DNA from: Halorarum salinum
GTDB taxonomy: Archaea > Halobacteriota > Halobacteria > Halobacteriales > Haloferacaceae
DNA length: 64,000 nucleotides
Reading direction: 5' to 3'
Assembly: GCF_013402875.1 (NCBI RefSeq)
Contig: NZ_CP058579.1
Location: 930,001-994,000, forward strand
This document shows positions 8,307 to 64,000 of this stretch, in pieces (within the stretch, counting starts at the first letter, position 1; each line of letters opens with the position of its first letter). A model generated the notes under the pieces. It was not told the origin of the DNA and ran no database searches. It was given only the letters and a program-made list of their open reading frames with translations. The position numbers were made by a program, and so were the translations under genes.

Positions 8307-8807
8307 TCGATGTCGATACTGACTCCGTCTAGAAAGAGGTTTCCCACCCCCGGGCCGACCCATTATGAAACTTATATTATGTGTTCCCGGGACGTGCTAC
8401 ACTCGATTACGTGGTCGCTGCCCACGCCAGATAAGGCCGGAACAGGAGAGTATCCACTCACCCTCACTTGAGACGTATCCCGGGCCCTCACGGACAACTG
8501 GTTCGAGACTCGCATTCTGGAACGGGCATGGACGTCAGGATGTGATCTCCGCCACTATGCTCGTCCGACGAAAGCTGTTCCCTCAAAGGTACACCAAACG
8601 GGCTCAACATCTAGCATGGTGGCACGGGTCGGCCACTCGCTCGCAATCGAGGTTAGGTTGACGATGAACGTTATCGACTAGACCTGTGTCGATTCGTGAG
8701 TGAGTGTTCGATGACCGTCTGCCACTGTCTCTGATGTGTCGTCCAAATTGGCCGCAGAACTCCTCCTGAGTGATAACGTTCAACACAATGGCTGGCAACA
8801 AGCGGGT
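8307..8807. other. Intergenic region between divergent genes
   Basis: About 500 bases between a minus-strand dehydrogenase and a plus-strand hydrolase. An AT-rich element at 8371-8379 (cttatatta) fits a minus-strand promoter giving a leader of about 45 bases to the start at 8306. GC-rich palindromic patches (ccccgggccg, cccgggacg, tcccgggccc) are scattered through it. Open frames here lack any recognisable protein character. Confidence 0.4.
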
Positions 8808-9647: not shown

Positions 9648-9777
9648 TGCCGTCAGTCAGTTCGCGTTCGGCTTGTGTCGTGAACGAAACGGGACCCGTG
9701 AAGCAACTCAGATCGTCGGCTCAACCGTGATGAGCGATAAATAGACCGTGGAAGAGAGCGGGAATCCACCATCGAGG

Positions 9778-11256
9778 TCACGAGTCGGTGAGTTGCCGTT
9801 GGATGAACGGATACAGCAGTGACAACGCCGAGAGGATGAGGATGGTGAACGCGATCGGACTGGTGTAGAAAATCGCGAACGACCCGTCCGAAATTTGCAG
9901 GGACCGTCGAAAGTTCGACTCGGCAATCGGGCTTAGTATCATGCCCAAGACGAGCGGGACGAGGGGGTACTCCTGCATCAGAAGAACGTATCCGACGATC
10001 CCAGCGAGAATCATCACCCAGGCATCGAAGGGATTACCGCGGAGAGCGATCGACCCGACGACACAGAGCAAGAAGATCGATGGCCAGAGCAGACGTGGCG
10101 GGAACGATATGAGCCGAACCCACACGTGTGCACCCAGGAATCCCACGACGAGAATGACCAGATAGACGAGAAAGAAGCCGATGAAGATCCCGTAGACCAT
10201 ACTTGCATCGGACTCGAACATTCCGGGCCCTGGTGTAATCCCATGAACGAGAAGCGCGCCGATCAGAATCGCTGAGACAGCGTCGCCTGGGATACCCAAC
10301 GTGAGCGTTGGAATGAGGGCGCCCCCTGTACTGCCATTGTTCCCGGATTCCGCGGCGGCGATCCCTCGAATGTTACCGTCGCCAAATTCGGGGGTCCCAT
10401 CGGAAATCCACCGTTTCGCTTCATTGTATGTGACGAATGACGCCATATCACCACCAGCGCCTGGAATCGCACCGATGAGACTGCCCACCAATCCGGAACC
10501 GAGCGACGTGGCTGAAATCGTCCGGAGATCCTCCCAGGACGGAATCGTCCCGGAGATATCCTGACTGACCGCATTCTGCTTGATGCCCTTCCGGTAGTAG
10601 TTGAGCCCCTCGGCGACACCGAACAGTCCGATCATGACCGCGATGAACGCGAATCCCGCCGTCAATGCCGTCGTCCCGAACGTAAACCGTGGTGTTCCGA
10701 CGACAGGATCCAATCCAACAGTAGCGATGAGCATTCCGAGGAGGCCGGAGATGACTCCTTTAACCACCGAATCACCGCTAATACTCGCAATAATCGTCAG
10801 TCCAAACACCGCCAGCGCAAAGAACTCTGGTGACCTGAAATTCAACGCGATTTGAGCGACCTGGGGGGCGAATATCGCGAGGATTACCACGCTCGTCGCA
10901 CCTCCGATTACGGACGCGACGGTCGCAATCCCGATTGCACGACCAGCCTCACCTCGCTGTGCGAGGGGATATCCGTCGAACACGGTGGCGGCAGCACTTG
11001 GTGTCCCCGGGGTGCGAATAATAATCGCAGGGATCGACCCGGCGTACAACGCTCCGCCATAGATGCCAAGCAGGAGCATCATCCCCTCGATCGGTTCCAT
11101 CGCGAAGGTGAACGAGACGAGCACCGCGACGGTCATCGTCGCGGTCATCCCGGGAATCGAACCCATCAGAACACCGACTAACACGCCGGCGACAAGGAGG
11201 AGTAACGCGATGGGGGTGAACACCAGTATCGCACCCTCTATGAACGCTTCTAACAC
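9778..11256 (-). CDS. tctA: Tripartite tricarboxylate transporter, large membrane subunit
   Basis: A 492-residue very hydrophobic protein with about 11-12 membrane spans. TctA-specific motifs are clear: GSIPGMTATMTVAVL near residue 32, and GIYGGALYAGSIPAI with TPGTPSAAATVFDGYP at about 65-100; AIPGAGGDMASFVTYN and LTLGIPGDAVSAI are repeated versions in the second half, reflecting the internal duplication of the family. It moves an organic acid (citrate-like or other carboxylate) using an ion gradient, fed by the TctC binding protein. It follows tctB by 1 base on the minus strand. Confidence 0.93.
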   Translation of the reverse strand: MLEAFIEGAILVFTPIALLLLVAGVLVGVLMGSIPGMTATMTVAVLVSFTFAMEPIEGMMLLLGIYGGALYAGSIPAIIIRTPGTPSAAATVFDGYPLAQRGEAGRAIGIATVASVIGGATSVVILAIFAPQVAQIALNFRSPEFFALAVFGLTIIASISGDSVVKGVISGLLGMLIATVGLDPVVGTPRFTFGTTALTAGFAFIAVMIGLFGVAEGLNYYRKGIKQNAVSQDISGTIPSWEDLRTISATSLGSGLVGSLIGAIPGAGGDMASFVTYNEAKRWISDGTPEFGDGNIRGIAAAESGNNGSTGGALIPTLTLGIPGDAVSAILIGALLVHGITPGPGMFESDASMVYGIFIGFFLVYLVILVVGFLGAHVWVRLISFPPRLLWPSIFLLCVVGSIALRGNPFDAWVMILAGIVGYVLLMQEYPLVPLVLGMILSPIAESNFRRSLQISDGSFAIFYTSPIAFTILILSALSLLYPFIQRQLTDS

Positions 11257-11257
11257 A

Positions 11258-11788
11258 TCATTTCACCCTGGTTGGAGCTGCTGGAAGTTCAAGTAGTATC
11301 GGGATGACACGAGAGAGTGGCATAACGGGATTTTCCGGGAGTCGAACGTCGAATATTCCGGCAAACACGACGGATAGAACGAGCGGGAGGCCGACGGAGA
11401 TGAGAGCGATAATCCGGTAATCCGTCTCGCCCGAGTATCGGAGCAGGACGATGAGGAACAGGGCGGAAGCGATGAGGAATCCTAGAGTCGAGAGGCTGGC
11501 GACGAACAGCAGCAACAGCGCAGAAACCGTTGCGACAGTCTTCGCTGTCGACCGCGGAACCTCGTAGCGAACCTCCGTACCGCGTCTAATCGACAGGAGT
11601 AACTGGACAACTGAGAGAATCGCGATTCCAGCCAGGATAAGCCGCGGGAAGAACGCAGGACCGGGATCTGCTTCAGGTGGGCGACCCGAGACCAGTTGGC
11701 CGCTTAACGCGAACACCCCGATCGACATGAGTATCAAGAGCAGCGATCCTAGCTTTTCGGCGTGTCGTATCGTGATCGGTTGTGACAT
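11258..11788 (-). CDS. tctB: Tripartite tricarboxylate transporter, small membrane subunit
   Basis: A 176-residue protein with four predicted membrane helices (about 12-30, 43-60, 80-105 and 120-150), matching the TctB/DUF1468 layout. The N-terminal RHAEKLGSLLLILMSIG and central VSALLLLFVASLSTLGFLIASALF fit the family. It is the accessory membrane subunit required with TctA. It lies between tctC and tctA on the same strand: the gap to tctC is 66 bases and to tctA 1 base, the standard tctCBA order. Confidence 0.9.
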   Translation of the reverse strand: MSQPITIRHAEKLGSLLLILMSIGVFALSGQLVSGRPPEADPGPAFFPRLILAGIAILSVVQLLLSIRRGTEVRYEVPRSTAKTVATVSALLLLFVASLSTLGFLIASALFLIVLLRYSGETDYRIIALISVGLPLVLSVVFAGIFDVRLPENPVMPLSRVIPILLELPAAPTRVK

Positions 11789-11854
11789 AGGGTGCGTGAC
11801 GGAACTGGGTATGTTAGCAAAGATGGCTCAGCGGACCACGAATTGATATCGAGA

Positions 11855-12859
11855 TCACATACCTAACTCGTCAGTGAGGTCCTGGAATCGCTGGTAGTCC
11901 TGTTCCCAGAACTCCCCGAACTCCTCGGTATCGCGATAGATCGTTCCGAAGCCCTGTTCTGACATGAACGATTGGAACTGGTCGGTTTGGAACGCCTCAT
12001 AAAAGACGTCGTGGAGGAACTCGATTCGATCGTCCGGCGTTTCTGCTGGCACGGCGATACCGCGCCATGCCCCTAACGTGAAGTCGTACCCCTCCTCTTG
12101 CAACGTCGGAACATCCGGGAAATTGTCGTGCCGTTCGCTTTCCATGACGGCCAATAATTCGAGCGGGCCGTCCTCAACCTGTGGAGCGACCTCCGGGACG
12201 CTTGACGTCGTTGCATCCATTTCCCCGTTGACAACCGCTGTGGTCGCAGGTCCACCTCCGTCGTAGCCTACGTAATCTAACTCGATGTCGGCCTCGAGTT
12301 CGAATCCGACACCAGCGAGATGCCAAATTCCGCCCTCGCCGTCCGTGGAAACTTGAATCTCGCCGGGGTTGTTCGCTGCGTACTCGACGAACTCCTCGAG
12401 CGTGCCGTATGGTGCGTCCTCGTGAACAGCAATCCCTGCAGGATCGGAATTGAACTGCATGACGGGCTTGAAGTCATCTGGAGTGATGTCTGCAATCCCG
12501 AGCGGCTTGAAGATGCTCAACCCGATGGTCGCAATGCCGATTGTGTAGCCGTCAGGCTCCGAGTTCTTCCACTCGGTGAACCCTGTCACGCCACCGCCAC
12601 CGGTAACGTTCGTCACGTACATCGACGCATCCAGCTCTTCATCGGCGACGTCCACAATCTGGCGGCCGACCCGGTCTGTTCCCCCGCCCGCTGGGAACGC
12701 AACGATGACCTCGATATCCTCTGACGGATATTCGTCGTCACCCGTCATACAACCGGCGAGCGACAGCGTTACACCCGCGCCTGTAGCAGTCAGAAAGGAT
12801 CTGCGATCAGTGACAGTAATATTTCTACTCGGCCGTTGTGGTGAGCGATCATTCCCCAT
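11855..12859 (-). CDS. tctC: Tripartite tricarboxylate transporter substrate-binding lipoprotein
   Basis: 334 residues from ATG 12859. The frame is open to 12982, but a TATA-like element at 12883-12890 sits about 27 bases before 12859, fixing a leaderless start. The N-terminus has a Tat motif (DRRSFLTATGAG) and lipobox (LSLAGC), so it is exported folded and lipid-anchored. The mature part matches the Bug/TctC fold: VIVAFPAGGGTDRVGR, a PDGYTIGIAT stretch, and LQEEGYDFTLGAWRGIAVP. It captures the carboxylate substrate outside the cell for TctAB. First gene of the tctCBA operon. Confidence 0.93.
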   Translation of the reverse strand: MGNDRSPQRPSRNITVTDRRSFLTATGAGVTLSLAGCMTGDDEYPSEDIEVIVAFPAGGGTDRVGRQIVDVADEELDASMYVTNVTGGGGVTGFTEWKNSEPDGYTIGIATIGLSIFKPLGIADITPDDFKPVMQFNSDPAGIAVHEDAPYGTLEEFVEYAANNPGEIQVSTDGEGGIWHLAGVGFELEADIELDYVGYDGGGPATTAVVNGEMDATTSSVPEVAPQVEDGPLELLAVMESERHDNFPDVPTLQEEGYDFTLGAWRGIAVPAETPDDRIEFLHDVFYEAFQTDQFQSFMSEQGFGTIYRDTEEFGEFWEQDYQRFQDLTDELGM

Positions 12860-12882
12860 AGTAACTATCGCCAAATGGTCTT

Positions 12883-12890
12883 CTATAAAC
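12883..12890 (-). promoter_or_regulatory. TATA-like element of tctC
   Basis: Plus-strand ctataaac (minus-strand gtttatag). Its centre is about 27 bases from the tctC ATG, the archaeal spacing for a leaderless mRNA. Confidence 0.6.
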
Positions 12891-13335
12891 GTTCTGGTTG
12901 AGTGATCGTCGACCCCCTTTGGGGAGTTCGATACGTTTCTGTCACGAATGTGACTGCCTCTCACGGTCATCGACCCGAGCACTCACAATGCGCTGAAACT
13001 ACGATTTTTACTGAATCCGGGTCTCCTCGTGTTCCTTCCGAAGAGATCAACGAATGCAATCGCCTCCTCCGTGAGGGTTCAGGACAGGTACCACTCGTCC
13101 GAGCGAGAAATACGGTTCGAGGTCCGGTCGGGATTGTCGAGACATCCGACGAAAACTGCTTCAGCGATGCGGCTACGCTGCGCCTCGTGGCTGGAGTTCC
13201 GGGGGTGGACGAGTGAGTCGACGGCGTCGATCCGTTATACCGTCTCCTCTATGAGTGCGTTCTTATGGTTATTTGAACTACCATCTCATCATTGGGTTCT
13301 CTCAGTAATGCGGTTCCGGTACATGCGATTGCCCA
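12891..13335. other. Intergenic region
   Basis: Between the tctC promoter and the 3' end of an enolase-family gene on the same strand. A frame at 12902-13216 on the plus strand gives partly protein-like sequence towards its end but has no recognised domain, no clear promoter and no partner; it is left unannotated. Terminator signals for the enolase gene are not obvious. Confidence 0.35.
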
Positions 13336-14445
13336 CTACCCGATCCGGTACTGTTCGAGTTTCCCCTCGTCGACCGAGACGCCGAGTCCAGGGCCGTCAG
13401 GGACCGCCATCGTCCCCTCGGAGACGGTGAGTGGGTTTTCGAGCAGGTAGTCCTCCCAGGCAGGGTACACCGTATCCACCGCGAGGTTGATCGCCGTCGT
13501 ACTCGCTACAGCGTGCAATACGGCAGCCTTCTTGATCCCGAGGTCGAACCCGTCGTGGTGGGCCACCGAGATCCCATGTTCGGCGGCGACAGCGGCCTGT
13601 GATTTGAGTGCGAGAATACCACCCGCCGGGACGAGATCGACGACTGCGACGTCGATCGCGTCCTCGCCGAGAAGGTGCGAGAGGTTTCGCGGGAAATACG
13701 CGTCCTCGTTGATCCCGATCGGCGTCGAGAGACGGTTCCGAAGCCGCTTGTACGTTCCGAACGTATCGATGCGGACCGGTTGCTCCAAGTACTGAAGATA
13801 TATCCCGGCGTCTTCCAATCGAGCACCGACGCGAACCGCATCCTCGAAGGTCCACCCCTGATTCGGGTCGAGCCGGAACTCCAGGTTCCCATCGACCTCC
13901 TCGTGCATCGCAACGACCCGCTCTACGTCCGTCTGCCAATCACGCCCAGCTTTCAGTTTGAGGACATCATACCCCTGATCGAGCGCCATTGAGGCGTACG
14001 TTCGCGAGCGTTCCGGACTGAGGATCCCGAGCGTACTCGCAACGGGAACGTGGTCGGATGCCTTCCCGCCAAGGAGTCGGTGAAGCGGTGCGTCGAGATG
14101 CTTTCCCAGGGCGTCCCACATCGCCATCTCGACACCGGCGATGTAGGAATTGAGATCGAGATACTCGTAGTGAAACCCGCTGACGAACGACTCGATCTCC
14201 CACACAGAGCGGCCAATGACCTGCGGGATTACGTCGTTTCTGAGGAGCCCCATCGTCGATTCGACCGAAGGAGAGGGTCGAATCTCCCCCCAGCCTTCGA
14301 TACCAGTCTCCGTACAGAGACGAATCAGTACCCGTTCCACTCGTTCAACCGAGGAGAACTTGCCCTGATATGGCGCGATTCCGCCGTCTTCCAGCGAGTC
14401 TACGTTCATCTCGACTGGGATCACATCTACATCCGTTACTTCCAT
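13336..14445 (-). CDS. Mandelate racemase/muconate lactonizing enzyme family protein
   Basis: A 369-residue enolase-superfamily enzyme. The lysine motif KLKAG lies on strand 2 of the barrel, metal ligands are in LDPNQGW, QYLEQP and GINED, and a probable Asp-His pair is in VAVVDLVPAGG and SVAHHDGFDLG. The KxK plus D-H pattern is that of the mandelate-racemase branch, in which acids are racemised or dehydrated, rather than the muconate branch that uses a second lysine. It probably acts on a sugar acid or hydroxy acid. It lies downstream of the second peptide transporter on the same strand, with a 215-base gap. Confidence 0.88.
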   Translation of the reverse strand: MEVTDVDVIPVEMNVDSLEDGGIAPYQGKFSSVERVERVLIRLCTETGIEGWGEIRPSPSVESTMGLLRNDVIPQVIGRSVWEIESFVSGFHYEYLDLNSYIAGVEMAMWDALGKHLDAPLHRLLGGKASDHVPVASTLGILSPERSRTYASMALDQGYDVLKLKAGRDWQTDVERVVAMHEEVDGNLEFRLDPNQGWTFEDAVRVGARLEDAGIYLQYLEQPVRIDTFGTYKRLRNRLSTPIGINEDAYFPRNLSHLLGEDAIDVAVVDLVPAGGILALKSQAAVAAEHGISVAHHDGFDLGIKKAAVLHAVASTTAINLAVDTVYPAWEDYLLENPLTVSEGTMAVPDGPGLGVSVDEGKLEQYRIG

Positions 14446-14660
14446 GATCGGGTTGACGTATCGACCAAGACCACTTCAATGCGTGCATCAACCCCCCACT
14501 GGGACTGAGAAAAAGGGTCGGGGAGTCGACGCGGTACCACCCGAAACCCGTTGAAGGGCCGCTGAGAGCACCCGTGAGGCTTTCAGATCCGTGGTTCGAG
14601 GGGACGATCTGCGCCACGCACCAGGTGATGCTATCCGGCGTTCTAGTTCACGTGCTCATG

Positions 14661-15680
14661 TCATGACTGCTCCAGGGGGTGATAACACGCGACGTCGCGG
14701 TCCGACTCACCCCTCGAGATCAGCGCGGGTTCCGACTCCTTGCACTCCTCGGTCGCGTACGCACAGCGCGGGTGGAATCGACACCCGGTGGGGATATTAG
14801 TGGGACTTGGGACCTGTCCCTCCAGTTTCCCCCACGAGCGGGTCGCGTCAGGATTTGGATTGGGAACCGACTCGAGTAGTGCCTCCGTGTACGGATGAGC
14901 AGGTTCGTGGATTACCTCGTCGGTCGGTCCGGACTCCACGATGTTACCGAGGTACATGATCATCGTCCGGTCGGCGAGATAGTTGATCGTCGAGAGGTCG
15001 TGGGAGATATACAGGATCGACAGGTCCCGCTCCGCCTGCAAGCGCTCGAACAGGTGGAGAATACCGGTTCGCACGCTCACGTCCAGCATGGACACCGGTT
15101 CGTCTGCCACCAGGAAATCCGGATCGAGGATGATCGCACGGGCGATGCACACCCGCTGTCGCTCCCCGCCGGACAGCTCACCCGGTAGTTTATCGAGATA
15201 CTTCTCGGGTGGGGCGAGTCCAACTTCCTCGAGCGTTTCGATCGTCCGATCGGTTCGGGACTCCCGATCGCCGATTCCGTGTATCTTCAGGGGTTCGGAA
15301 ACGATCCGAGCGACGGGGAACCGTGGGTTCATCGCTTCGTACGGATCCTGAAATATCACCTGTGCCTTCCTCCGGAACTCGTTCATCTCGGCTTTCCCGA
15401 ACTCCGTCAACTCCTCCCCGTCGAAGAGAATCCGCCCGCCGGTCGGTTTCTGTAACCCGACGAGGAGTTCCCCGAGCGTCGATTTCCCACAGCCGCTCTG
15501 TCCCGCGAGCCCGACGATTTCACCACGTTCGATGGTGAAATCCACGTCGTCGACTGCTTTGAGATAGTCCGGCTCGGAGAACAGGGTCGAAAGTATCGAT
15601 CCTTCTCCCTGAGACGCGAACCACTTGCGGAGGTCCTGTACTTCGAACAGGTTCCTCGACTGAACTTCCGTGCTCGACAT
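14661..15680 (-). CDS. dppF: Peptide ABC transporter ATP-binding protein, DppF type (second system)
   Basis: 339 residues from ATG 15680 (MSSTEVQSRN), one base after the dppD stop; the frame is open further upstream but only shadows dppD. Walker A GQSGCGKST (60-68), signature LSGGERQR (169-176), Walker B FLVADEP (189-195), and the C-terminal CRFHPRCAYATEEC cysteine motif of oligopeptide transporters. It is the last gene of a five-gene minus-strand operon (binding protein, DppB, DppC, DppD, DppF). It is a clear paralogue of the gene at 2365-3420. Confidence 0.93.
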   Translation of the reverse strand: MSSTEVQSRNLFEVQDLRKWFASQGEGSILSTLFSEPDYLKAVDDVDFTIERGEIVGLAGQSGCGKSTLGELLVGLQKPTGGRILFDGEELTEFGKAEMNEFRRKAQVIFQDPYEAMNPRFPVARIVSEPLKIHGIGDRESRTDRTIETLEEVGLAPPEKYLDKLPGELSGGERQRVCIARAIILDPDFLVADEPVSMLDVSVRTGILHLFERLQAERDLSILYISHDLSTINYLADRTMIMYLGNIVESGPTDEVIHEPAHPYTEALLESVPNPNPDATRSWGKLEGQVPSPTNIPTGCRFHPRCAYATEECKESEPALISRGESDRDVACYHPLEQS

Positions 15681-48492: not shown

Positions 48493-48906
48493 ATGGCCTC
48501 CGAAGAACACCCGATCAACAGTCCTGCAGCTGAAACCGACACCCGACCGCCGCGAGTCCGCTCGCGCGTAGCCGCCTGGATTCTCATCTGCTGTCTCGTT
48601 GCAGTCGAACCAGCGACGGCACAGCAAAACGCCGTCTGTGCGGCCGACCGCCTCCCCGAGATGATCTCGGGGTTCTTCCGGCTCACCACCGCTATCGGAT
48701 TGATGGGGCTGGTCGTCGTCTGGCAAGCCGACTCGCTCGTGGAGATGTTCACGCTTCACCGGGAGCAGCGCGAGGGGATCAAGCGACACAAACGGACGGC
48801 GCTCAAGTCAGCCGTCATCCTGGTTGTCCTCGGGCCGCTGTACACCGTCGCCGGGTCGATGATGAACCTTCCGCTGGCCGGGTGTATCGACTTGGTCCCG
48901 TGGTAA
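48493..48906 (+). CDS. VirB2/TrbC-like small membrane protein (putative pilin-like)
   Basis: 137 residues from ATG 48493 (MASEEHPINS); the GTG start at 48418 is less likely. A hydrophobic stretch at about 26-43 ending ATAQ resembles a cleavable signal. Two membrane helices follow (about 58-77 and 104-124), joined by a short basic loop. This size and layout match VirB2/TrbC pilin-type subunits, and it is the first gene of the cluster, but no sequence motif proves it. Cys49 and Cys131 could form a disulfide outside the membrane. Assignment as pilin is inference. Confidence 0.6.
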   Translation: MASEEHPINSPAAETDTRPPRVRSRVAAWILICCLVAVEPATAQQNAVCAADRLPEMISGFFRLTTAIGLMGLVVVWQADSLVEMFTLHREQREGIKRHKRTALKSAVILVVLGPLYTVAGSMMNLPLAGCIDLVPW

Positions 48907-48924
48907 CTACTCGAGGAGAGATTC

Positions 48925-50667
48925 GTGAGTCGTCCCGTGTCCACGCGGATCCTCATGCACCTTCTCGTTGTGAGCGTCGTCGTCATCGGGCTCACGACCA
49001 TAATCGTCCCCGTTCAGTCGACCTCGAGTGAGCACCCGCTGGACGAAAACGAGACGGCGACGCTCTGGTCGAACGATCCCGATACCTGTCCCGAGGGCAT
49101 CCAGACTGGAGACGGCGTTGGCTCGGAGACCGCGGCCATCCGGGAGCTCGCGAACTGCACCGATCTCACGTTCAAGCGGCCACCATCGACCGCGGCGAGG
49201 TGGAGTGTGCACGATTTCGAGGAGCTCGAACCTGGGGACGGGAACACGTCAGTCCACCCGCCGAACGCGACGCTCACCGACTCGGTGGTGATCGCGGACG
49301 CGCATGCATCGCTGTTCGCTGCCCATCCATCCACGACGGTTCATCGGGAGCCGGACGACTCCCCACTGTACATTGCACCGACCGGGACGGTGCGAGGCCT
49401 CGTCGACTATCGCGTTCGGCCACTCGAGAACGAATCCGTTGATGTTGATCCCGACTCGGGGGCGAGCCTCCGGCACGAAGTGAGCGAAGTCCGCCTATTG
49501 CTGGGAGGTGACGTCCTCACCGTTACCAACGGGTCGCAGACTCCGGTCCTCGCGTACGAAACGAACGAGACTGGCCGAACAAATCTCACCATCGAAGCCG
49601 ACATCCGCGTGAGGCTTGCTCAAGGTAGCCCTGCTACTGGTGGGACTGACTCGGACTCTGAGACCACGGTCGACGAGGTGACTGTCTCCGAGTCGATTCC
49701 AGTTCGGGTGTACGGGCCAACGGTCGAACAGTTCACGGCACGGTATCCGAACGGAGATACTGGAATCGCGCTGTATCAGCGCCAACCCTGGCACGGTTAC
49801 AGCCTGCGTGGGGATGGCGATGCTCGAGTGCGAGGGGTGTGGCGCTACTACACGGCTCGCGATACTGGCTGGGACGAACTCGTCCACTCGAGGAGCGATG
49901 GATCCGAACGGGTCCGGTCGGACGCACGGCCGGTGTTCGTCCACGCGTACCCATCCGAGATCGGGCCGCGGGCAGAGCCCGTCAGGGACGGGCCGACGAT
50001 CCTCGACGTCTGGGGAACCGAGAGTGAATCACCGGCGATCGAACTCCCCGAGAACGTGACGGTCGACGTCGTCGAGCAGCCCTACACCCAGTCCTACGGG
50101 TTAGCATTGCGGACCGACGAGCGTACCCTCGAGGGCGTGCACGTCCAGGGGATCGTTCGCGGTGTCAACACCACGGTCACCATCCCGGATGACGAGCGGG
50201 TGCGGCCACTCCGTGAGAGCGAGCTCAGCGTCGAACTCGAGAATCAGTCGGCATCGGGTGCGACGCTTCGAATCGAACTGACGGACGCGACCACGGGTGA
50301 CCCCATATCGCTCACCGACACGCAGGGTGCAGATCCCGTGGCCGTTCCGGCTGACGGCGAGAGGCGTACGGGATACATCACTGTGAACGGTGAGCGGGTA
50401 GAGACGAACCCTGACGGGACGGCGACTGTGCAGGTTCGCGAGCCGGGAAGCTACAGCGTCCGGTATCATCCGGGGTCGTGGCTGTCGCACGATCCAGCGT
50501 ACGTCGGTTCGACGGCGAGCGTCTCTTGGCACCCGCTGCTCACCGTCGCTGGCTGGGTCGCTTTCCTCGATGAGGTCGTCTGGTGGTCGATTCCCTTCGT
50601 GACGGCCCTCTACGGTGGCATCCGCATCGGAAAATTCCTGAAATACGACGAATACCAATACAAATGA
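48925..50667 (+). CDS. Large membrane-anchored extracytoplasmic protein (unknown)
   Basis: 580 residues from a GTG, 18 bases after the preceding stop. A membrane helix lies near the N-terminus (about 11-30) and another at about 538-570; the intervening 500 residues are acidic, rich in Thr, Ser and Gly and in N-x-S/T sites, and probably form beta-rich domains outside the cell. Several LIKE-sheet segments (VTVDVVEQPYTQSYGLALRT, ATLRIELTDATTGDP) suggest Ig-like folds. No enzyme motif was seen. Its place between the pilin-like and VirB6-like genes suggests a surface or pore part of the apparatus. Confidence 0.65.
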   Translation: MSRPVSTRILMHLLVVSVVVIGLTTIIVPVQSTSSEHPLDENETATLWSNDPDTCPEGIQTGDGVGSETAAIRELANCTDLTFKRPPSTAARWSVHDFEELEPGDGNTSVHPPNATLTDSVVIADAHASLFAAHPSTTVHREPDDSPLYIAPTGTVRGLVDYRVRPLENESVDVDPDSGASLRHEVSEVRLLLGGDVLTVTNGSQTPVLAYETNETGRTNLTIEADIRVRLAQGSPATGGTDSDSETTVDEVTVSESIPVRVYGPTVEQFTARYPNGDTGIALYQRQPWHGYSLRGDGDARVRGVWRYYTARDTGWDELVHSRSDGSERVRSDARPVFVHAYPSEIGPRAEPVRDGPTILDVWGTESESPAIELPENVTVDVVEQPYTQSYGLALRTDERTLEGVHVQGIVRGVNTTVTIPDDERVRPLRESELSVELENQSASGATLRIELTDATTGDPISLTDTQGADPVAVPADGERRTGYITVNGERVETNPDGTATVQVREPGSYSVRYHPGSWLSHDPAYVGSTASVSWHPLLTVAGWVAFLDEVVWWSIPFVTALYGGIRIGKFLKYDEYQYK

Positions 50668-51479
50668 CTGACGCAGCGGTACACGTCCGCAGACGAACCG
50701 TCCTTGGAACGATTGTAGGGAGTACACTCCTTCCACTTGCTGGTTGTACTGGCTCGGGAAATCCGGCAGGGGAGGGGTCGAATCCGATCCGTGCCGTCTC
50801 GGTGGCCGACCTGCATCTGGTCGTGGAGGTGCGCGAGGATGCGAGCATCGACGAGTTGACTGTCGTCTCCCCGAATGGTGAGGCGTTCGCGACCCGGTCT
50901 CTCTCACCGGGTGTGCGGCGAGAAACAGTTGAGCTCGGCACGTCCTACACCCCCGGTTCCTACGAGATTCATGCGTCGGCTGACGGAGAAACGGTTGGTG
51001 AATCGTCCATCGACATCCGTCCCGACGTTCAGATCGTCGATCTGAAACTCGGTCGGAACCACCCAGATGAGATGTACGAGGGGGCGACCGAACAGGCGAT
51101 TCGCTCGGAAGTCATCGTCTCGCTGGAAAACCGGGGGACGGGACCTGATGCTGTGACGGCCCTCCGGTTCGATGGCGACGTTCCGTTCCCCACACGCGAG
51201 AATTTCGAGGAGAGCGGAATATACGATACCGAGAGTGATATCGGCGGAAATCGAGAACGAATACTCATCGGAACGGGAACGGAAGTTACGCTATTCAGCA
51301 ACTCACAACCCTTCTCCCCGGCCGGTGGGAATATCTCCTGTGAAGATGGTCCAGTGGACGGTCAGGTCGCGGTTGAACTCACTACACAGCTCTCCGATAG
51401 TGGCTCAACGGCCGACTACGATGTCAGCTATCGAGGGAATGACGACTTCGACTGTGACATCACAGTGGCTCAGTCATAG
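50664..51479 (+). CDS. Tat-exported lipoprotein of the secretion-type operon
   Basis: 271 residues from ATG 50664, overlapping the previous stop by 4 bases. The N-terminus VRRRTVLGTIVGSTLLPLAGC combines a Tat motif and a lipobox, so the protein is lipid-anchored outside the membrane. The rest is acidic and beta-rich with two probable Ig-like or CARDB-like segments (SVADLHLVVEVREDASIDEL; LRFDGDVPFPTRENFEESG). No known domain is certain. Operon position suggests a role at the cell surface of the transfer apparatus, perhaps replacing VirB7/VirB9-like parts, which archaea lack. Confidence 0.7.
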   Translation: MTDAAVHVRRRTVLGTIVGSTLLPLAGCTGSGNPAGEGSNPIRAVSVADLHLVVEVREDASIDELTVVSPNGEAFATRSLSPGVRRETVELGTSYTPGSYEIHASADGETVGESSIDIRPDVQIVDLKLGRNHPDEMYEGATEQAIRSEVIVSLENRGTGPDAVTALRFDGDVPFPTRENFEESGIYDTESDIGGNRERILIGTGTEVTLFSNSQPFSPAGGNISCEDGPVDGQVAVELTTQLSDSGSTADYDVSYRGNDDFDCDITVAQS

Positions 51480-51481
51480 TA

Positions 51482-52621
51482 ATGCAGGGAGTCTCACTCA
51501 CCGACGTTGGGCTCAAATGGTTCGAAGACGCAGTTAATCAAATTACTAAGTGGTTTAGTAACGGAATCACGACTGGGTACAATACGCTATCTGAGTTACT
51601 TCTGGGGACGCCAACGCCCGAAACTCGAGATACGTTCGTATTCGGTACTCCGACCAATGAGCCATGGATTGCACTCCACGACGCGTTAGTTGGTGGTGAA
51701 ATCCTCCTCCTCGCGCTACTTCTGTTAGTGGTTTGTGTCCAGGGTCGGCATACGGTTCGGATTTTCAATGTTGGGAGCGGGTATGAGGCACAGAAAACCA
51801 AACGAACAGCGTGGACTGGTGCGTTCCTCATCGTTACGTGGTACTGGATTGGCGTGCTGGCACTCTACCTCGTTGATGGATTTACCATCGCGCTGATTCC
51901 TGATGTCGCGGTCGTGACGACCGCGATGCTGGCTTTCATGGAAGTCTCGATCGCTAACCCCGCGCTCGCCCTGTCTCTCGCTGGACTCGGTGGCATCGCG
52001 ATGTGGGTCCTGCAGGCGCTCTTGTTCATCCGTAAGATCCTCCTGTACGTCTATCTCTATGGGATGCCACTCGCGATCGCGCTGGCGTTCGGAAACCTCC
52101 CGGTCGTCTCACGAATCGCACAGGCACTCAGCCTCAAGTTCGTCCCCCTCGCGATCATGCCGTTACCGGTCGCGATCCTGTTCAAGGCGTACGGACTCCT
52201 GTTCAGCGAGGGGACGGGCGCTCCGCTTGCACCCGAGAGCGCCTTCCTCAGTTACCTGCTCGCGGCGTCGCTCCCAATCCTGGCAGTCCTCGTCGTCTGG
52301 AAGCTGTTCAAGTACGCCTCGCCGATGACTGCATCGGTCATCGGCTCCGTTACCGGTGCTGCAGTAACAGCCGGTGCAGTCGTCACTGCGGGCGCTGTCG
52401 CAGGTCCATACGTCGCCTCGACTGCCGCAAAATGGGGACCGAAAGCGGCCGCCGGGCACGCCATGGCCCAGCGAGTCGCCGGTGGATCGACCAACTCTCA
52501 GAGTCGGCCCAGTGGCGGCTCGACTGGGGGAACGAGCCAGGACAACGTCGTCACCGACGCCTACGGCCAGCAGGGCGTCCCGTCGTATCGCCGTACCGAG
52601 AATGACCCCGGCTACTACTGA
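51482..52621 (+). CDS. VirB6/TrbL-like polytopic membrane protein
   Basis: 379 residues with five to seven predicted membrane helices (about 73-90, 115-140, 141-168, 170-190, 195-212, 222-245 and 258-278) followed by a glycine- and alanine-rich helix hairpin (SVTGAAVTAGAVVTAGAVAG) and a disordered Gly/Ser/Gln-rich tail. This design is typical of VirB6/TrbL channel subunits of type IV secretion systems. It starts 2 bases after the preceding stop. The sequence has no diagnostic motif, so the name rests on topology and position just upstream of VirB3/VirB4-like genes. Confidence 0.65.
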   Translation: MQGVSLTDVGLKWFEDAVNQITKWFSNGITTGYNTLSELLLGTPTPETRDTFVFGTPTNEPWIALHDALVGGEILLLALLLLVVCVQGRHTVRIFNVGSGYEAQKTKRTAWTGAFLIVTWYWIGVLALYLVDGFTIALIPDVAVVTTAMLAFMEVSIANPALALSLAGLGGIAMWVLQALLFIRKILLYVYLYGMPLAIALAFGNLPVVSRIAQALSLKFVPLAIMPLPVAILFKAYGLLFSEGTGAPLAPESAFLSYLLAASLPILAVLVVWKLFKYASPMTASVIGSVTGAAVTAGAVVTAGAVAGPYVASTAAKWGPKAAAGHAMAQRVAGGSTNSQSRPSGGSTGGTSQDNVVTDAYGQQGVPSYRRTENDPGYY

Positions 52622-52630
52622 CCACAAAAT

Positions 52631-52831
52631 ATGACCGACGATCACACTGCTGCGACCCGCCGTATCATGGACGCCATCGGCGAGGAGAGTCGCCTCCCGA
52701 TCATCAACGTGCGCGAGGGAGATGTTTACGTCCTCATCGGCTTTCCCACGGCCGGGCTCTTGCTCGGTGGCCTCACGGGCATCGACGTGCTCGTTCTCCC
52801 GCTCGTGTTGCTTGACTTCTCGCAAGCGTGA
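52631..52831 (+). CDS. VirB3-like small membrane protein
   Basis: 66 residues: a soluble N-terminus of about 30 residues and a hydrophobic hairpin (GDVYVLIGFPTAGLLLGGLT, then LVLPLVLL). VirB3/PrgI subunits are short proteins with such a hairpin and are encoded just before VirB4. The stop overlaps the next gene start by 4 bases (GTGA at 52828-52831). Assignment is inferred from size, hydrophobicity and position. Confidence 0.6.
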   Translation: MTDDHTAATRRIMDAIGEESRLPIINVREGDVYVLIGFPTAGLLLGGLTGIDVLVLPLVLLDFSQA

Positions 52832-53748
52832 CGACCGTCGTCGCGTCGCCGTCACACCTCCCCGCGTCGACGTGGCTCGGTGACGTCGCACGCTACTACC
52901 TGGGCCGGCCTCACATCACCTTCGCCGCACCGGCTGGCGAGTCAGCGGGGACAGACGAGGCTCTTCATCGAACTGATGGAGGGATCGTTCAGTACCGCCC
53001 GTTCACACCCGCAGAGCGCACCCAGGAGCTCACCCACCTCGAACGAGCGTGGCCTGGCGCGAGCGCGATCGAGCGGGATGACGGGACGATGGTCGCGATG
53101 CTTGCGATCGAGCCCGCGAACATGGATTTCGCCATGTCCGGTGACTGGGCGACTCGGCAGGCGACTGCCGAGACGTTTGCGAACAACGAACTCGACTTCC
53201 CGCTGACGCTCCACACGACGACGCGGCCGTTCCCCGTCACCCGGCTCGTCGACCAGATCGAGGACCGACTGACGGACGAAGACGTCACAGACAACGCCGT
53301 GTTTCGAGACCTGCTCGAAGAGTATCGCGACCGGCGACCCGAGCAGTTGGCCGACACTCAGCAGATCCAGTACTATCTCGGCGTCGAGGTGGCGCCGTTC
53401 GAGGTGTACAACCGGGACCGTGACGAGCGATCGCCCGCCGAACGGCTCAGCAGGATTCCCCTGCTCGGCCTCCTCTTCACGCCCTTCGTCACGCGACGCG
53501 AACGGTTCACGGAGGCCGAACTTCGGGCGAAGCAGTTCGAGCACCTGGACCGGCGCTGTCGGACGGTCGAAACCGAACTCGTGAGTAGCACGGCGGGCTG
53601 GTCGGCGCGGCGACTCGACACGCCCGACCTGTTCCTGCTCGCGATGGACTTCTGGAACGGTGAGCCCCACGCATACGGCGAGGCGGCAGCGGTCATCGGG
53701 CAAGAATCAGCCGTCGACCACCGCGCTCGGGGTGATTCCAATGGCTGA
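52828..53748 (+). CDS. Protein resembling a stand-alone VirB4/TraC N-terminal domain
   Basis: 306 residues from a GTG. No membrane helix and no Walker motif. The layout ERDDGTMVAMLAIEPANMDF, NNELDFPLTLHTTTRP and YYLGVEVAPFEVY, followed by LDRRCRTVETELV and ARRLDTPDLFLLAMDF, resembles the N-terminal domain of conjugative VirB4/TraC ATPases and the separate SCO6880-type proteins of Gram-positive systems. It overlaps the VirB4 gene by 8 bases. Likely a cytoplasmic partner of the ATPase; homology needs profile search. Confidence 0.6.
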   Translation: MTTVVASPSHLPASTWLGDVARYYLGRPHITFAAPAGESAGTDEALHRTDGGIVQYRPFTPAERTQELTHLERAWPGASAIERDDGTMVAMLAIEPANMDFAMSGDWATRQATAETFANNELDFPLTLHTTTRPFPVTRLVDQIEDRLTDEDVTDNAVFRDLLEEYRDRRPEQLADTQQIQYYLGVEVAPFEVYNRDRDERSPAERLSRIPLLGLLFTPFVTRRERFTEAELRAKQFEHLDRRCRTVETELVSSTAGWSARRLDTPDLFLLAMDFWNGEPHAYGEAAAVIGQESAVDHRARGDSNG

Positions 53749-55813
53749 CCCACGACTCGTCCCGATGCAGGCATCCGCTGCATGGTCACTGACGGACCTC
53801 GCACTCGTCGTGGGTGGGCTCCTTCTCGGGGTGCTGCTTGCAACGTGGTGGCAGCGCCGCGGGCAGGCTAACGGGTTCGATCCGAACGCGGTGTTCGACG
53901 AGTCCGTCTTGCAGGATGCCCCGGCCGACCGAGCAGTCCTGACTGCGATTTCCGAGCGCCAGCAGCGCGCCCTCGCCCCGGCCGCTATCGAGTGGGGGAC
54001 GCGGGCTGCCCGTGTCGGCGAGCAGTGGACGACCACGCTCTACGTGGCTGACTGGCCCGACTATCCCGCTGACGGCTATCTCAACGAACTGTTCACGCTC
54101 ACTGACGTCCAGTTCGATTGCACGGTTCACATTACACCGAAGAATCAGGAGCGAGCACGCGAGGAACTCCGGACGGTCGCTGACGACCTCCAGGTTGACG
54201 CAGACCTCGAACGAAGCGTCCGGGGCCGATACCTCCAGGACCGCGCCAACGAGGCGGCAGAGACGTACACGGCCGTCGAGAACGGTCAGCGGGTGTTCGG
54301 CCAGGCGATGTTCGTCACCGTGCGTGCCGACACGACAGAGGCCCTCCGCGAAGACGTCCGCACAGTGCGGCGCCGACTCCGTGACACACCCGCGAATCTC
54401 ACCCCGAAGACGGCTATCTGCAAGCAAGACCTGGCGATTCGGGCGGCTGCACCGCTGGGGGACAATTCGTTCGGCAGGGAGGCAGTCGCGCTCGGTGGGG
54501 CTGTCGGGGCGTTGCTGGCCTCACCGCATACGCCAACGATTCTCGAACCCGGTGGGGTCGAGGTAGGGACGCACCGGCACACGAACAGCCCGCTCGTCAT
54601 CGATCCGTTCGCCCGGGAGAACGGCTACGCCAAGTTCACCGTCGGTGATCCCGGGTCGGGGAAGTCCTTCGGTGCGAAACAGCAGTTCCTTCGATCGATC
54701 GCGCAGTCGCCGAATCGGCTCGGGATCATCCTCGAACCGCTGAACAACTGGGCTGGCGTCGCTGAAGCGCTCGGCGCTCGCCGCATCACGGTCGGTGGGA
54801 CGATGGGGTTGAATCCCCTGGAGCTCAAGCCGACGCCCGAGCACGTCCAGCGGGCGATGGGCGAGGACGCCAGCCCGTTCACCGAGAAGAAGGCGAGCGT
54901 CCTGAGCTTCCTTACGAACTACTTCGCGCTCCGGGGGGTTGAACTCGGTGACCGACGGACGACGCTCGAACTCGCCATCGACCAGGCGTACCGGGAGCAG
55001 GGGATTACCGACGACATCGCCACACATAGTCGAGAGAGCCCGACGCTGCGGGAAGTCCTCGATATTCTCGAGGCGCTGGTGGACGAGCCGGAATCATACG
55101 TCGTCCGGACGCCAGAGGAGGCAGAAAAACTCCGGACGGACGCGACGTGGCTCATCGACCAGCTACGTCCGTTCGCGGAGGGTGGGCGCTTCGAAAACCT
55201 CGGCCGGCCGACCGAGTTCGACATTCGCGACGAGGGACTCATCTATCTCGATCTCGCGCAACAGGAGGGAAACGTCGGTGGAAGCACGAGCCTCCTGATG
55301 CAGTTGCTCATCTCGCTCGTGTACGAACGGGCGAAAGAAACCGGGAAGGAGATCGTCTTCACGATCGACGAGGCGCGATACGTCATGCAGGATACGGCGA
55401 GCCTCTCCTTCCTCGAAACGGTGTTCAGACACCACCGCCATCACGATCTCTCGATCCGCCTCGTGACCCAGACCGTCGACGAGTTCTTCCACCACCCAGA
55501 ATCCGAGGCCATCCTCGATCAGTGTGCGATCAAGCAGTTCCACCGCCTCGACGGCATGGACGAGGAGTGGGCCAACGAGTTCGGCCTGAACTATGCGCAA
55601 ATGCGGTTCGTGCAGGACGCCGTACCGGGAAACGACCGGACGGGATACTCGGAAGCGCTCGTTGGCGTGGATGGTGAATGGCGCGGGATCGAGGTCAGGG
55701 CGTTACCACGTGAGGCGGAGGTCATCGACTTCGATCCGACGACGGACCGTGTAGATGAGCAGTCCGTCCTTCAGGATGGCACAGCGCCGATTCACCAAAG
55801 AGGGACCAAGTAG
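53741..55813 (+). CDS. virB4: VirB4-like conjugation/secretion ATPase
   Basis: 690 residues from ATG 53741 (MADPRLVPMQ), overlapping the previous gene. A membrane helix at about 16-36 precedes a VirB4-type N-terminal domain (about 80-240). Walker A is VGDPGSGKS (301-309), Walker B is IVFTIDEA (538-545), then FRHHRHHDLSIRLVTQTVDEF matches the sensor-like segment of VirB4/HerA ATPases and DQCAIKQFHRLDGMDEEWA the usual end. It would power assembly or DNA/protein transfer. Last gene of the operon; no relaxase or VirD4 gene follows. Confidence 0.85.
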   Translation: MADPRLVPMQASAAWSLTDLALVVGGLLLGVLLATWWQRRGQANGFDPNAVFDESVLQDAPADRAVLTAISERQQRALAPAAIEWGTRAARVGEQWTTTLYVADWPDYPADGYLNELFTLTDVQFDCTVHITPKNQERAREELRTVADDLQVDADLERSVRGRYLQDRANEAAETYTAVENGQRVFGQAMFVTVRADTTEALREDVRTVRRRLRDTPANLTPKTAICKQDLAIRAAAPLGDNSFGREAVALGGAVGALLASPHTPTILEPGGVEVGTHRHTNSPLVIDPFARENGYAKFTVGDPGSGKSFGAKQQFLRSIAQSPNRLGIILEPLNNWAGVAEALGARRITVGGTMGLNPLELKPTPEHVQRAMGEDASPFTEKKASVLSFLTNYFALRGVELGDRRTTLELAIDQAYREQGITDDIATHSRESPTLREVLDILEALVDEPESYVVRTPEEAEKLRTDATWLIDQLRPFAEGGRFENLGRPTEFDIRDEGLIYLDLAQQEGNVGGSTSLLMQLLISLVYERAKETGKEIVFTIDEARYVMQDTASLSFLETVFRHHRHHDLSIRLVTQTVDEFFHHPESEAILDQCAIKQFHRLDGMDEEWANEFGLNYAQMRFVQDAVPGNDRTGYSEALVGVDGEWRGIEVRALPREAEVIDFDPTTDRVDEQSVLQDGTAPIHQRGTK

Positions 55814-56147: not shown

Positions 56148-56510
56148 ATGACCGTCGCTATCATCTCCACGGGGGGCACGATTTCGTCTATCAGTGACGA
56201 AGGGACGGGAGCGACCCCCGAGCTTGAGGGCTCGTATCTAGTCGATTCCCTACCGGTTCTCGATCGAGGTCCTCCAATCGAGACGTGCGAGTTCGCGAAC
56301 GTGCCGAGCGCCTACCTTACCATCGAACAAATGTCGTCGCTCACGGAAGTCGTTCAGGAATATAGTCGCAATGACGACCTCACCGGGATCGTCGTGACAG
56401 TCGGCACTGACGTCCTTGAAGAAGTCGCGTACTTCGTCGATCTCTGTTACGGCGGACCGACACCAGACGAGTATCGCGACGATTGTGGCTCTCGCGAGCT
56501 GCGGGCTTGA
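56148..56510 (+). pseudogene. L-asparaginase family, N-terminal fragment
   Basis: Encodes 120 residues. The opening VAIISTGGTISSIS carries the catalytic threonine motif of asparaginases; residues about 80-100 (GIVVTVGTDVLEEVAYFVDL) correspond to the second motif, normally HGTDTxEET, here with His replaced by Val. The frame ends after YGGPTPDEYRDD, while complete enzymes have about 320 residues. The C-terminal two thirds are missing and the next gene lies on the other strand, so this is a relic. Confidence 0.8.
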
Positions 56511-62309: not shown

Positions 62310-62621
62310 TCAAGTCGTGTCCTCGTCTGCGTCGTCTCCATCCGAGAGCCGGGTCGAAAGTCGGTCGAAGCGATTCGATGCGGACGCAGCCCGTTCTGCG
62401 GTCGCGTCGGGTTCGTAGGTGAACTCCTCCGGATCGCCGTCGACGACTGTGACGGTGAACACGGCATCTTGCTGCCGTCCCTCCTTTGGGAGTCGAGAGC
62501 TGGGGACGACTTCCTCGTCGACTACCTCACCGTCCGATTCGATCAGAAGCACTGCCATCTCCTCCCCATCCTCGAGTTCCTCGAAGCGATCTAATGTCGC
62601 CGTCAGCTCGGTTTCACTCAT
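62310..62621 (-). CDS. DUF3006-like protein
   Basis: 103 residues. It opens MSETELTATLDRFEELEDGE and continues MAVLLIESDGEVVDEEVV, PSSRLPKEGRQQDAVFTV, matching the small beta-barrel DUF3006 family (DRFEG...A-V-L-L, then LPxGxxxGD). Such genes are often found next to ComEC-like hydrolases. Its ATG overlaps the TGA of the ComEC-like gene by 4 bases, so the two are translationally coupled. Role unknown. Confidence 0.75.
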   Translation of the reverse strand: MSETELTATLDRFEELEDGEEMAVLLIESDGEVVDEEVVPSSRLPKEGRQQDAVFTVTVVDGDPEEFTYEPDATAERAASASNRFDRLSTRLSDGDDADEDTT

Positions 62622-64000
62622 TGGTAGTCCTCCTCGAGTACGAGTCGACCGTCCGAATGGGTAACGACCACCGTATCTCCGCCATTATTCCAGATGGCAC
62701 GTTCTGCACCCCAGTACAGTTCCGAATCAGTGTTCGTACCGCTACCGGAATAGAGGGTCACTCGCTCACCCGGCTCCAGCGTGAAGCCGTCGGGGACGGT
62801 ATAGGTGTGATCCGCCGCGTCAGCGACTTGCCAGCCTGAGAGGTCCAGCGGGTCATCGCCCGTGTTCTCGAAGACGACGTACTCGTCGTTCAGGTTCTCG
62901 TTGTCGTTCCCCGCTGCATCTGCGTGGACGTCGACGAGTGAAAGCGACTCGCTCTGGGAATCCGGGGGTGTCGTCGTCTCGGTGGTCGGCGTCTCAGTGG
63001 TGTCGATTCCACCGTCAGCGAGTGCGCCACCGACCGTCAGCTGCAGTTCGAGTTGTGCGTCACTGCCTGGCTCGATTGGTGATCCGTCCCGGAGGTCAGT
63101 CGCGGTCGTCGGTGCTGCCTGCTGGGTCCATACCTCGACTGCTGTCCCGTTCGATCGGACTGCGACAGTACCGTGGGTCGCGGTCCAGAGCGTCGGAATC
63201 TCGCGGTCGGCAAGCCGTTCGAGCGTCTCGGTGTGGGGGTGGTCATACTGGGAGTCGAACGCGCTCGAGATGACCGCTATCTGTGGCGACGTCGCATCGA
63301 GCAGTTCCTCCCCCGTACTGGAACTGCTCCCGTGGTGGCCGGCTTGCAGGACGGTCACGTTCAGCCGGTCGCCGTACGTTTCGGCGATGTGTGCTTCATG
63401 TTCGGCTTCCGCGTCACCGGGGAACAGGAAGCTCGTCTCGCCGTGTTGCACGTAGAGGACGAGGCTGTTCTCGTTCCTGTCCTCGCCAGCGAGGTACGGT
63501 TCCGGCGGGCCGAGCACCGTGGCGTTCACGCCATCGAGTGGCAGCGAATCGCCTTCCCTCGTTTCATAGAGCGGCACCTCGTGTTCCTCGATCGCATCGA
63601 GGTAGTCAGCGTATGTCTGGGAACTCGACGTGATGCCGGGGTCGTACACTGCGCCGATGCCGTCCCGCTCGGTCTCATAGTGGTTGATGATCGCCGCATG
63701 GCCACCGATGTGGTCAGCGTCGGCGTGAGAAGTGACCAGGTGATCGATGCGGTCGATTCCGAGCCTGTTCAGCGCGGTTAACACGTACTCGCCGTCATCG
63801 CGCCAGTCGCCCGAATCGATCAGCATCGTCTCGCCGTCAGGCGTGATGAGGACCGTACTCGCCCCCTGGCCGACGTTGATGTAGTGGACTTCGAGCGTCC
63901 CGTTCTCATCGCCCTGGAGCTGTGGTGGATCAGACGCCGGCGTCTGTGTCGAAGCGTCAGTAGGGGTCTCGCTAGTCGGTCCGGCTCCGAGACCACCAGC
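62618..64000 (-). CDS. Secreted ComEC-like metallo-beta-lactamase hydrolase with lamin-tail domain (5' end outside the window)
   Basis: The frame is open from 62618 to the right edge without a stop, so the start is off-window. At the edge the product reads AGGLGAGPTSETPTDAST, the linker usually found after a lipobox. The MBL domain begins HYINVGQGASTVLI, has LIDSGD and metal motif TSHADADHIGG, and LQAGHHGSSSSTG further on, as in ComEC/Rec2. After a Thr-rich linker the C-terminus is an LTD domain (DEYVVFENTGDDPLDLSGWQ). It would act outside the cell, perhaps on DNA; overlaps the DUF3006-like gene. Confidence 0.88.
   Translation of the reverse strand, partial: AGGLGAGPTSETPTDASTQTPASDPPQLQGDENGTLEVHYINVGQGASTVLITPDGETMLIDSGDWRDDGEYVLTALNRLGIDRIDHLVTSHADADHIGGHAAIINHYETERDGIGAVYDPGITSSSQTYADYLDAIEEHEVPLYETREGDSLPLDGVNATVLGPPEPYLAGEDRNENSLVLYVQHGETSFLFPGDAEAEHEAHIAETYGDRLNVTVLQAGHHGSSSSTGEELLDATSPQIAVISSAFDSQYDHPHTETLERLADREIPTLWTATHGTVAVRSNGTAVEVWTQQAAPTTATDLRDGSPIEPGSDAQLELQLTVGGALADGGIDTTETPTTETTTPPDSQSESLSLVDVHADAAGNDNENLNDEYVVFENTGDDPLDLSGWQVADAADHTYTVPDGFTLEPGERVTLYSGSGTNTDSELYWGAERAIWNNGGDTVVVTHSDGRLVLEEDYQ

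Follow-up and report, generated by a model that had tools for sequence, protein, structure and literature searches.

This study describes an operon resembling those for type IV secretion and conjugation, found in a window of 64,000 nucleotides of Halorarum salinum DNA (NZ_CP058579.1, positions 930,001 to 994,000 of the forward strand). The window's contig is referred to as C1, G and L numbers denote genomes and loci, own1 is the element to which the window operon belongs and own2 is a second element of the same genome. All seven open reading frames (ORFs) of the operon, g1 to g7, were present on the plus strand at 48493-55813, exactly where the initial annotation had placed them (Table 1). Gene calling relied on a simple script based on codon usage, and gene starts are therefore approximate. 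The annotation had counted seven genes, whereas the set is one of six because a single gene, VirB3-VirB4N, accounts for both the fifth and the sixth ORF. Overlaps of 4, 4 and 8 bp between stops and starts, described as overlaps of 4-8 bases, are present, but that at 52828-52831 is accidental because it results from the 1-bp deletion that split VirB3-VirB4N.

Table 1. Features of the operon and of the associated element within the window
Feature	Position	Strand	Basis
g1, VirB2/TrbC-like pilin (137 aa), putative	48493..48906	+	signal-like N terminus; TrbC/VirB2 profile evidence weak
g2, exported ectoprotein (580 aa)	48925..50667	+	AlphaFold2 model; homologues in loci
g3, Tat-type lipoprotein (271 aa)	50664..51479	+	twin arginine and lipobox-like pattern in members
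g4, VirB6/TrbL-like polytopic membrane channel protein (379 aa)	51482..52621	+	Pfam PF19590 TrbL_3
g5, N-terminal piece of the VirB3-VirB4N gene, membrane hairpin, shortened by frameshift	52631..52831	+	alignment to relatives; model
g6, remainder of the VirB3-VirB4N gene: VirB4 N-terminal-domain-like, TrsD-like, without ATPase domain	52828..53748	+	model; Foldseek; TrsD
g7, VirB4 ATPase (690 aa)	53741..55813	+	NCBIfam NF045971; TraG P-loop
DUF3006 protein	62310..62621	-	element-core gene, 5/7 elements
Secreted metallo-beta-lactamase/lamin-tail protein (annotated "ComEC/Rec2")	62618..64000, beyond window end	-	core, 5/7 elements; homologue in G002

The view that this is a type IV secretion or conjugation-like operon was borne out by profile searches for VirB6 and VirB4 and by structural comparison for the VirB4 N-domain, with weaker calls for VirB2 and VirB3. 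The g4 protein matched TrbL_3 over its full length (E 4.8e-186) and, as judged from its sequence, can be called VirB6 with certainty. The best model for g7 was that of the VirB4-like CD1110 family (E 5.6e-33) at 114 bits, which is below its curated cut-off of 325 bits, followed by Mbov_0397, TraC-F and VirB4_CagE, all also below their curated cut-offs. Such scores are as for a remote family member. The g7 protein carries the TraG P-loop, CagE_TrbE_VirB matched 6 of 32 of its relatives, and the ATPase scored best against conjugation models rather than those of HerA or pilus-retraction ATPases.

Alignment with five relatives, in which the VirB3-VirB4N stretch is continuous, places a one-base loss near 52823 in the window only. 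Of 38 loci, 37 have an uninterrupted joined ORF, the exception being the window, and the intact gene has about 372 codons in relatives. In five loci (L043, L044, L060, L063 and L073) it is fused onward to VirB4, giving a single protein of 1021-1103 residues. A model of the intact own2 protein, with a moderate predicted local distance difference test (pLDDT) score of 66, has a membrane hairpin (29-49/52-72) and an alpha/beta domain. The top 10 Foldseek matches to this model were all chains of the R388 type IV secretion system (T4SS; best E 1.7e-3), and VIA-align aligned model residues 127-364 to residues 13-393 of R388 TrwK/VirB4 (Z 9.8-11.5, against 7.3 for the next entry and no more than 5.1 for the rest). 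The NCBIfam model TrsD matched 2 of 24 members (best E 5.5e-5). Pfam and NCBIfam scans gave no match to a VirB3 profile. The VirB3 label, taken from topology and position only, is tentative and would describe a VirB3-like hairpin fused to a part resembling the VirB4 N-domain. Searching the sequences of solved structures with the VirB3-VirB4N profile returned a chance match only.

The remaining subunits were less readily assigned. The g1 protein has two hydrophobic segments flanking a basic loop, with C49 and C131 invariant in a 23-row alignment. Of 23 members, 6 were matched by the TrbC/VirB2 profile (PF04956; best E 6.1e-4), but not the one in the window; the topology fits, and a VirB2/TrbC-like pilin is weakly suggested. 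The AlphaFold2 model of g2 (pLDDT 75.7; predicted template modelling score, pTM, 0.66) has an N-terminal hydrophobic segment and several beta-sandwich domains, and a predicted C-terminal helix (541-571) is taken as a membrane anchor. Homologues of g2 were found in 33 loci, the window counted, and no solid Pfam family was found among 27 members. Specific folds considered for g2 (Ig, FnIII, complement/macroglobulin domains and viral envelope proteins) gave TM-scores near 0.1 and tied Z values of about 8, and because of this low specificity the protein is described no more closely than as tandem beta domains. For g3, homologues were located in 29 loci by tblastn; all 29 members have the twin arginine within their first 30 residues, and 28 of the 29 have a lipobox-like pattern. 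Neither a cell-wall hydrolase nor VirB8 could be recognised among the operon's genes.

Gene order is conserved far beyond chance. In 39 sampled loci with a VirB4 ORF, all six genes were colinear on one strand in 23, at least five were colinear in 30, and none had genes out of order, although some elements are represented by two loci (L011 and L066 have identical VirB4). The annotation had proposed looking for the same order elsewhere in haloarchaea, and it does recur there, often on plasmids. Within L060 (G004:C1:2498411-2518410), positions 7902-14901 hold the operon and, behind it, another VirB4-like ORF with further VirB4 fragments in tandem; L064 (G002) holds VirB4 fragments alone.

The system is also widespread. 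Using tblastn, VirB4 relatives were found in 241 of 72,556 plasmid records, bacterial ones included (e.g. 16 from Enterococcus), and 79 of the 241 are at 60-80% identity. Plasmid typing lists 214 of these 241 records as "non-mobilizable", as it does all 146 records with a VirD4 relative. Many of the VirB4 genes in plasmid records are annotated as "transferase", which hides the system. Among 194 genomes of the haloarchaeal class, a close VirB4 was present in 71, a VirD4-type ATPase in 115 and both in 68; in 40 genomes taken as relatives, 24 had a VirB4 match at E 1e-30. VirB4 proteins from different host families can be near-identical (98.5% between families f6 and f1, 94.3% between f17 and f6), which indicates recent movement. 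Phage records gave distant ATPase matches only, none covering more than 80% of the query.

No VirD4 lies in the window, as the initial annotation had reported, and its suggestion of either a decayed element or components located elsewhere proved partly true on both counts: decay has begun, and a VirD4-type ATPase lies 60 kb downstream on the same strand (ORF C1:1045255-1048905, 1216 aa; profile match C1:1045462-1047912, E 4.4e-165). The second operon of this genome, in own2 (C1:39949-47247), has a damaged copy of the ATPase 92 kb downstream, and the two genes are also separated in G001, G002, G012 and G016. Across 98 VirB4 places, a VirD4-type ATPase was found less than 1 kb downstream at at least 71 and 1-92 kb downstream on the same strand at at least 9, while the 18 of 98 without one among the places listed is an upper bound that includes G004, where VirD4 is on the other strand. 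The 98 places omit G110:C37, the second G004 place, G021:C4, G054:C5 and four G112 fragments and take the two pieces of own2 as one; the VirD4 places are those listed plus own2 and G004, with one G163 dummy entry that matches nothing. At the level of the 194 genomes, a VirD4-type ATPase is present in 68 of 71 with VirB4 and 47 of 123 without (Fisher p 3e-17, the genomes being related and not independent). On plasmids, VirB4 is followed by an ATPase of 1211-1456 residues and then by a primase in pNRC200, N. bangense, Haloferax and Halopiger, the last three having a primase-associated protein behind the ATPase as well; pNG600 has other genes in place of the primase. The VirB4 tree groups the window, own2, G001, G002, G010, G016, HArc-gm2 and pAArc-CO in one supported set (100/99), and VirD4 is adjacent in none of them. 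Some loci vary around VirD4: L043, L070 and L072 have an extra protein of 365-407 residues before it (cluster c34), and in L053, L054, L056, L059, L068, L069, L043 and L070 a cluster c11 protein behind it replaces the primase pair, the L070 protein having an NrS-1 polymerase HBD domain.

The channel genes and the coupling protein of the window genome fall in one chromosomal block common to other elements. Using reciprocal best matches, own1 was compared with own2, G001, G002, G012 and G016 (integrated or contig-borne) and with the circular plasmid pAArc-CO. Seven genes or gene pairs, namely g1, g2, g4, g5-g6, g7, an ArdC-like gene and VirD4, were common to all seven elements; an OB-fold gene was found in six, and DUF3006, the metallo-beta-lactamase (MBL)/lamin-tail protein and TFB were each found in five, with a TFIIB-type gene also annotated on pAArc-CO beyond this TFB count. 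Only three of the seven were linked through g3, probably because g3 diverges and the gene calls miss its starts. The full order of mating-pair formation (MPF) genes, DUF3006/MBL, ArdC, TFB, OB-fold and VirD4 is present in own1, G001 and G002; own2, G012 and G016 lack some core members and keep the order of the rest, and pAArc-CO differs in part. Pfam searches of the element genes identified the ArdC N-terminal domain (E 5.6e-8 and 1.4e-5) as well as TFIIB, SWIM, DUF3006 and, slightly below cut-off, the OB-fold. The window element is integrated in the chromosome and spans roughly the stretch between the operon (C1:978 kb) and VirD4 (C1:1049 kb), and the related own2 lies at C1:38-143 kb. Tyrosine recombinase genes stand beside the channel genes in own2 and G002, with a fragment beside VirD4 in G001 and own2. 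A plasmid ancestry of these elements is suggested by fragments of ParA and Orc1 in own2 and of ParA in G001. A PolB gene with genes of 91 and 234 residues was observed in own2 (C1:127676-130859), in G001 and pAArc-CO and partly in G012. This trio resembles the PolB/small gene/inactive RadA operon of archaeal elements (PMC6563490); the papers cited here were available in part, and statements drawn from them hold for those parts.

For every operon gene, dN/dS was 0.09-0.28 against two same-genus copies, and the genes have therefore been kept by selection over most of their history. The window copy itself is probably no longer active, as read from its sequence, because VirB3-VirB4N is frameshifted and the ArdC gene of the element has an in-frame stop. 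Frameshifts are also present in g2, g7 and VirD4 of own2. Some of these indels may be sequencing errors; no long homopolymer surrounds the window deletion, and the frameshift in own2 VirD4 falls within a run of C.

Together, these data are best read as an integrated conjugative plasmid or integrative and conjugative element (ICE), seen here at its transfer-channel end, long under purifying selection and now partly decayed. The operon would be the MPF module (channel plus pilus) of a haloarchaeal conjugative element, a reading to which we assign a probability of about 0.78; we infer from it that DNA is the substrate and conjugation the function. In such a system, g1 would polymerise into a pilus or tube, VirB6 and the VirB3-like hairpin would form the membrane channel, and the ATPase-less VirB3-VirB4N protein would act with VirB4 as the cytoplasmic motor. 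The Tat lipoprotein and the ectoprotein would presumably make up a surface part that replaces the cell-wall and outer-membrane parts of bacteria. The VirD4/HerA-type ATPase, adjacent on plasmids and at the far end in the window element, would deliver the DNA. The ArdC-like and OB-fold core proteins and the plasmid primase pair suggest a single-stranded intermediate; double-stranded DNA transfer has been suggested for other archaea (PMC6563490).

Several results weigh against this interpretation. The relaxase family PF03432, the one family searched, had 0 matches in the whole window genome, with a positive control in L. lactis; this agrees with papers that describe typical relaxases as rare in archaea or unseen there (PMC3158045, PMC6563490, PMC12857230). 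The evidence for the VirB3 and pilin identities is weak or topological, and the available literature yielded no experimental test of transfer by this system. Class-A "VirD4" proteins score best with HerA/DUF87, and TraD/TrwB/CD1115 score best for distant members only, so "VirD4/HerA-type" is the safest name. The window operon has no integrase next to it, the seven element regions contain no tRNA gene, and the element ends show no convincing attachment repeat, the flanks of some kb having given only 13-20 bp matches; the 20-bp and 15-bp end matches of own2 were rejected as attachment sites, being inverted and reflecting integrase sequence at both ends. No clean empty site was found either, and the ends of the window element were not located. 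In two relatives the conserved right-flank gene stands next to other genes; the gene to its left in those relatives sits at C1:654 kb here according to a protein search, and a DNA search for the relatives' left neighbourhood returned nothing. Comparison of the element flanks by tblastx was uninformative owing to high-GC noise.

The lack of a PF03432 match would also fit two other explanations. A chromosomal DNA-import device like the crenarchaeal Ced and Ted systems, a reduced T4SS domesticated for uptake, would need no relaxase or coupling protein, would be consistent with purifying selection on the operon and would have a precedent in the similar minimal set (VirB2, VirB4, VirB6) of Ced (PMC11868833). 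We regard this as improbable since many copies are on plasmids (the 241 records with a VirB4 relative), a VirD4-type ATPase adjoins VirB4 at at least 71 of 98 places, and the copies of this genome are tied to mobile-element genes and bear disrupting mutations; the system found here is neither confined to host chromosomes, nor absent from plasmids, nor free of VirD4. Slightly less probable still is a T4SS for protein secretion, delivering effectors or toxins and travelling on plasmids. The surface ectoprotein g2 could conceivably bind target cells in this case, but the core genes include no conserved effector candidate, and the ArdC-like and OB-fold core proteins, together with the plasmid primase and primase-associated genes behind VirD4, point to DNA.

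Transfer through vesicles or cell fusion, as with pR1SE plasmid vesicles and fusexin elements, would have T4SS-like ATPases packing DNA. Haloarchaeal fusexin elements also hold VirB4, VirD4, HerA and XerC/D (PMC9259645), and plasmid-vesicle plasmids have a VirB4-like ATPase (PMC10818511). However, the operon encodes a VirB6/VirB4 channel set together with a VirB3-VirB4N protein, and the fusogen family PF10699 had no match above cut-off in 12 genomes, although this profile may miss archaeal fusexins and had no archaeal positive control. This possibility is given as little credence as protein secretion, and conjugation remains the preferred reading.

Archaeal VirB4 homologues were reported as numerous and often accompanied by a coupling protein, with one archaeal ICE and one haloarchaeal conjugative plasmid, pNG500 (Guglielmini 2011, PMC3158045), and haloarchaeal integrated elements with VirB4, VirD4, HerA and XerC/D were described by Moi et al. 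(2022, PMC9259645). The haloarchaeal system shares VirB4, VirD4, VirB6 and putative VirB3 homologues, a TFIIB gene near the T4SS, integrases, a PolB gene accompanied by a small and a RadA-like gene and, as far as PF03432 shows, the lack of a relaxase with thaumarchaeal and other archaeal ICEs (PMC6563490), but differs in its fixed operon, ArdC-like and OB-fold core, Tat lipoprotein and ectoprotein. Fusexin elements are similar in being haloarchaeal and over 50 kb and in having VirB4, a VirD4-type ATPase and XerC/D recombinases (PMC9259645); the likeness is one of gene content, and the 12 genomes searched here with PF10699 gave no fusogen match above cut-off. The Ced and Ted systems have VirB2-, VirB4- and VirB6-like parts (PMC9905601, PMC11868833), whereas the haloarchaeal system is plasmid-borne, linked to VirD4 and has a VirB3-VirB4N subunit. 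Krupovic et al. (2019, PMC6563490) list VirB3 in archaeal ICEs, while the available part of a 2025 paper states that archaea lack homologues of VirB3 and VirB8 (PMC11868833). TrsC/PrgI has been named as VirB3, alongside TrsD (PMC12102498). R388 Trw shares the VirB4 N-domain fold; there the central VirB4 has its N-domain contacted and wrapped by VirB3, and VirB4 is present twice per protomer (PMC9259494). The haloarchaeal system, by contrast, encodes one N-domain separately, in an ATPase-less protein that also carries the VirB3-like hairpin.

The Gram-positive/archaeal MPF_FATA class has the same VirB3-like, TrsD-like, VirB4 order, and g7 scores best with the CD1110 family of VirB4. The Trs gene order of pGO1 serves as the reference for this class. 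Unlike in MPF_FATA systems, the VirB3-like and TrsD-like parts are fused here, the surface proteins are archaeal, and neither a cell-wall hydrolase or VirB8 in the operon nor a PF03432 relaxase in the genome was recognised. No description of this operon was found in the literature available, which was mostly outside subscription journals. Archaeal ICEs are already known, and this subunit set and layout look new.

To the left of the operon, window positions 1-48000 hold what we take to be dense catabolic and transport genes (ABC, TRAP-like, racemase-like). Genes like these also lie inside own2, between its operon and VirD4, and catabolic cargo is therefore possible. To the right, the ORF at 56148-56510 presumably resembles the N-terminal part of an L-asparaginase, ends early and is probably truncated, and few genes were called at 57.9-62.3 kb.

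The operon is a well-equipped though little-described relative of bacterial conjugation systems. A more far-reaching possibility, which we regard as rather unlikely, is that haloarchaea have a complete, relaxase-free form of conjugation forming a distinct, class-wide archaeal branch, in which a HerA/VirD4-type pump and an archaeal-type primase with its partner would prepare and re-synthesise the DNA and the VirB3-fused, ATPase-less VirB4 N-domain would replace one of the two VirB4 copies that an R388 protomer has. If plasmids with VirB4 and VirD4 do move by conjugation, their typing as "non-mobilizable" is wrong. Being common, more complete than is usual in archaea and amenable to testing, the system merits interest, and the intact plasmid copies in culturable haloarchaea make relaxase-free archaeal conjugation directly open to experiment.

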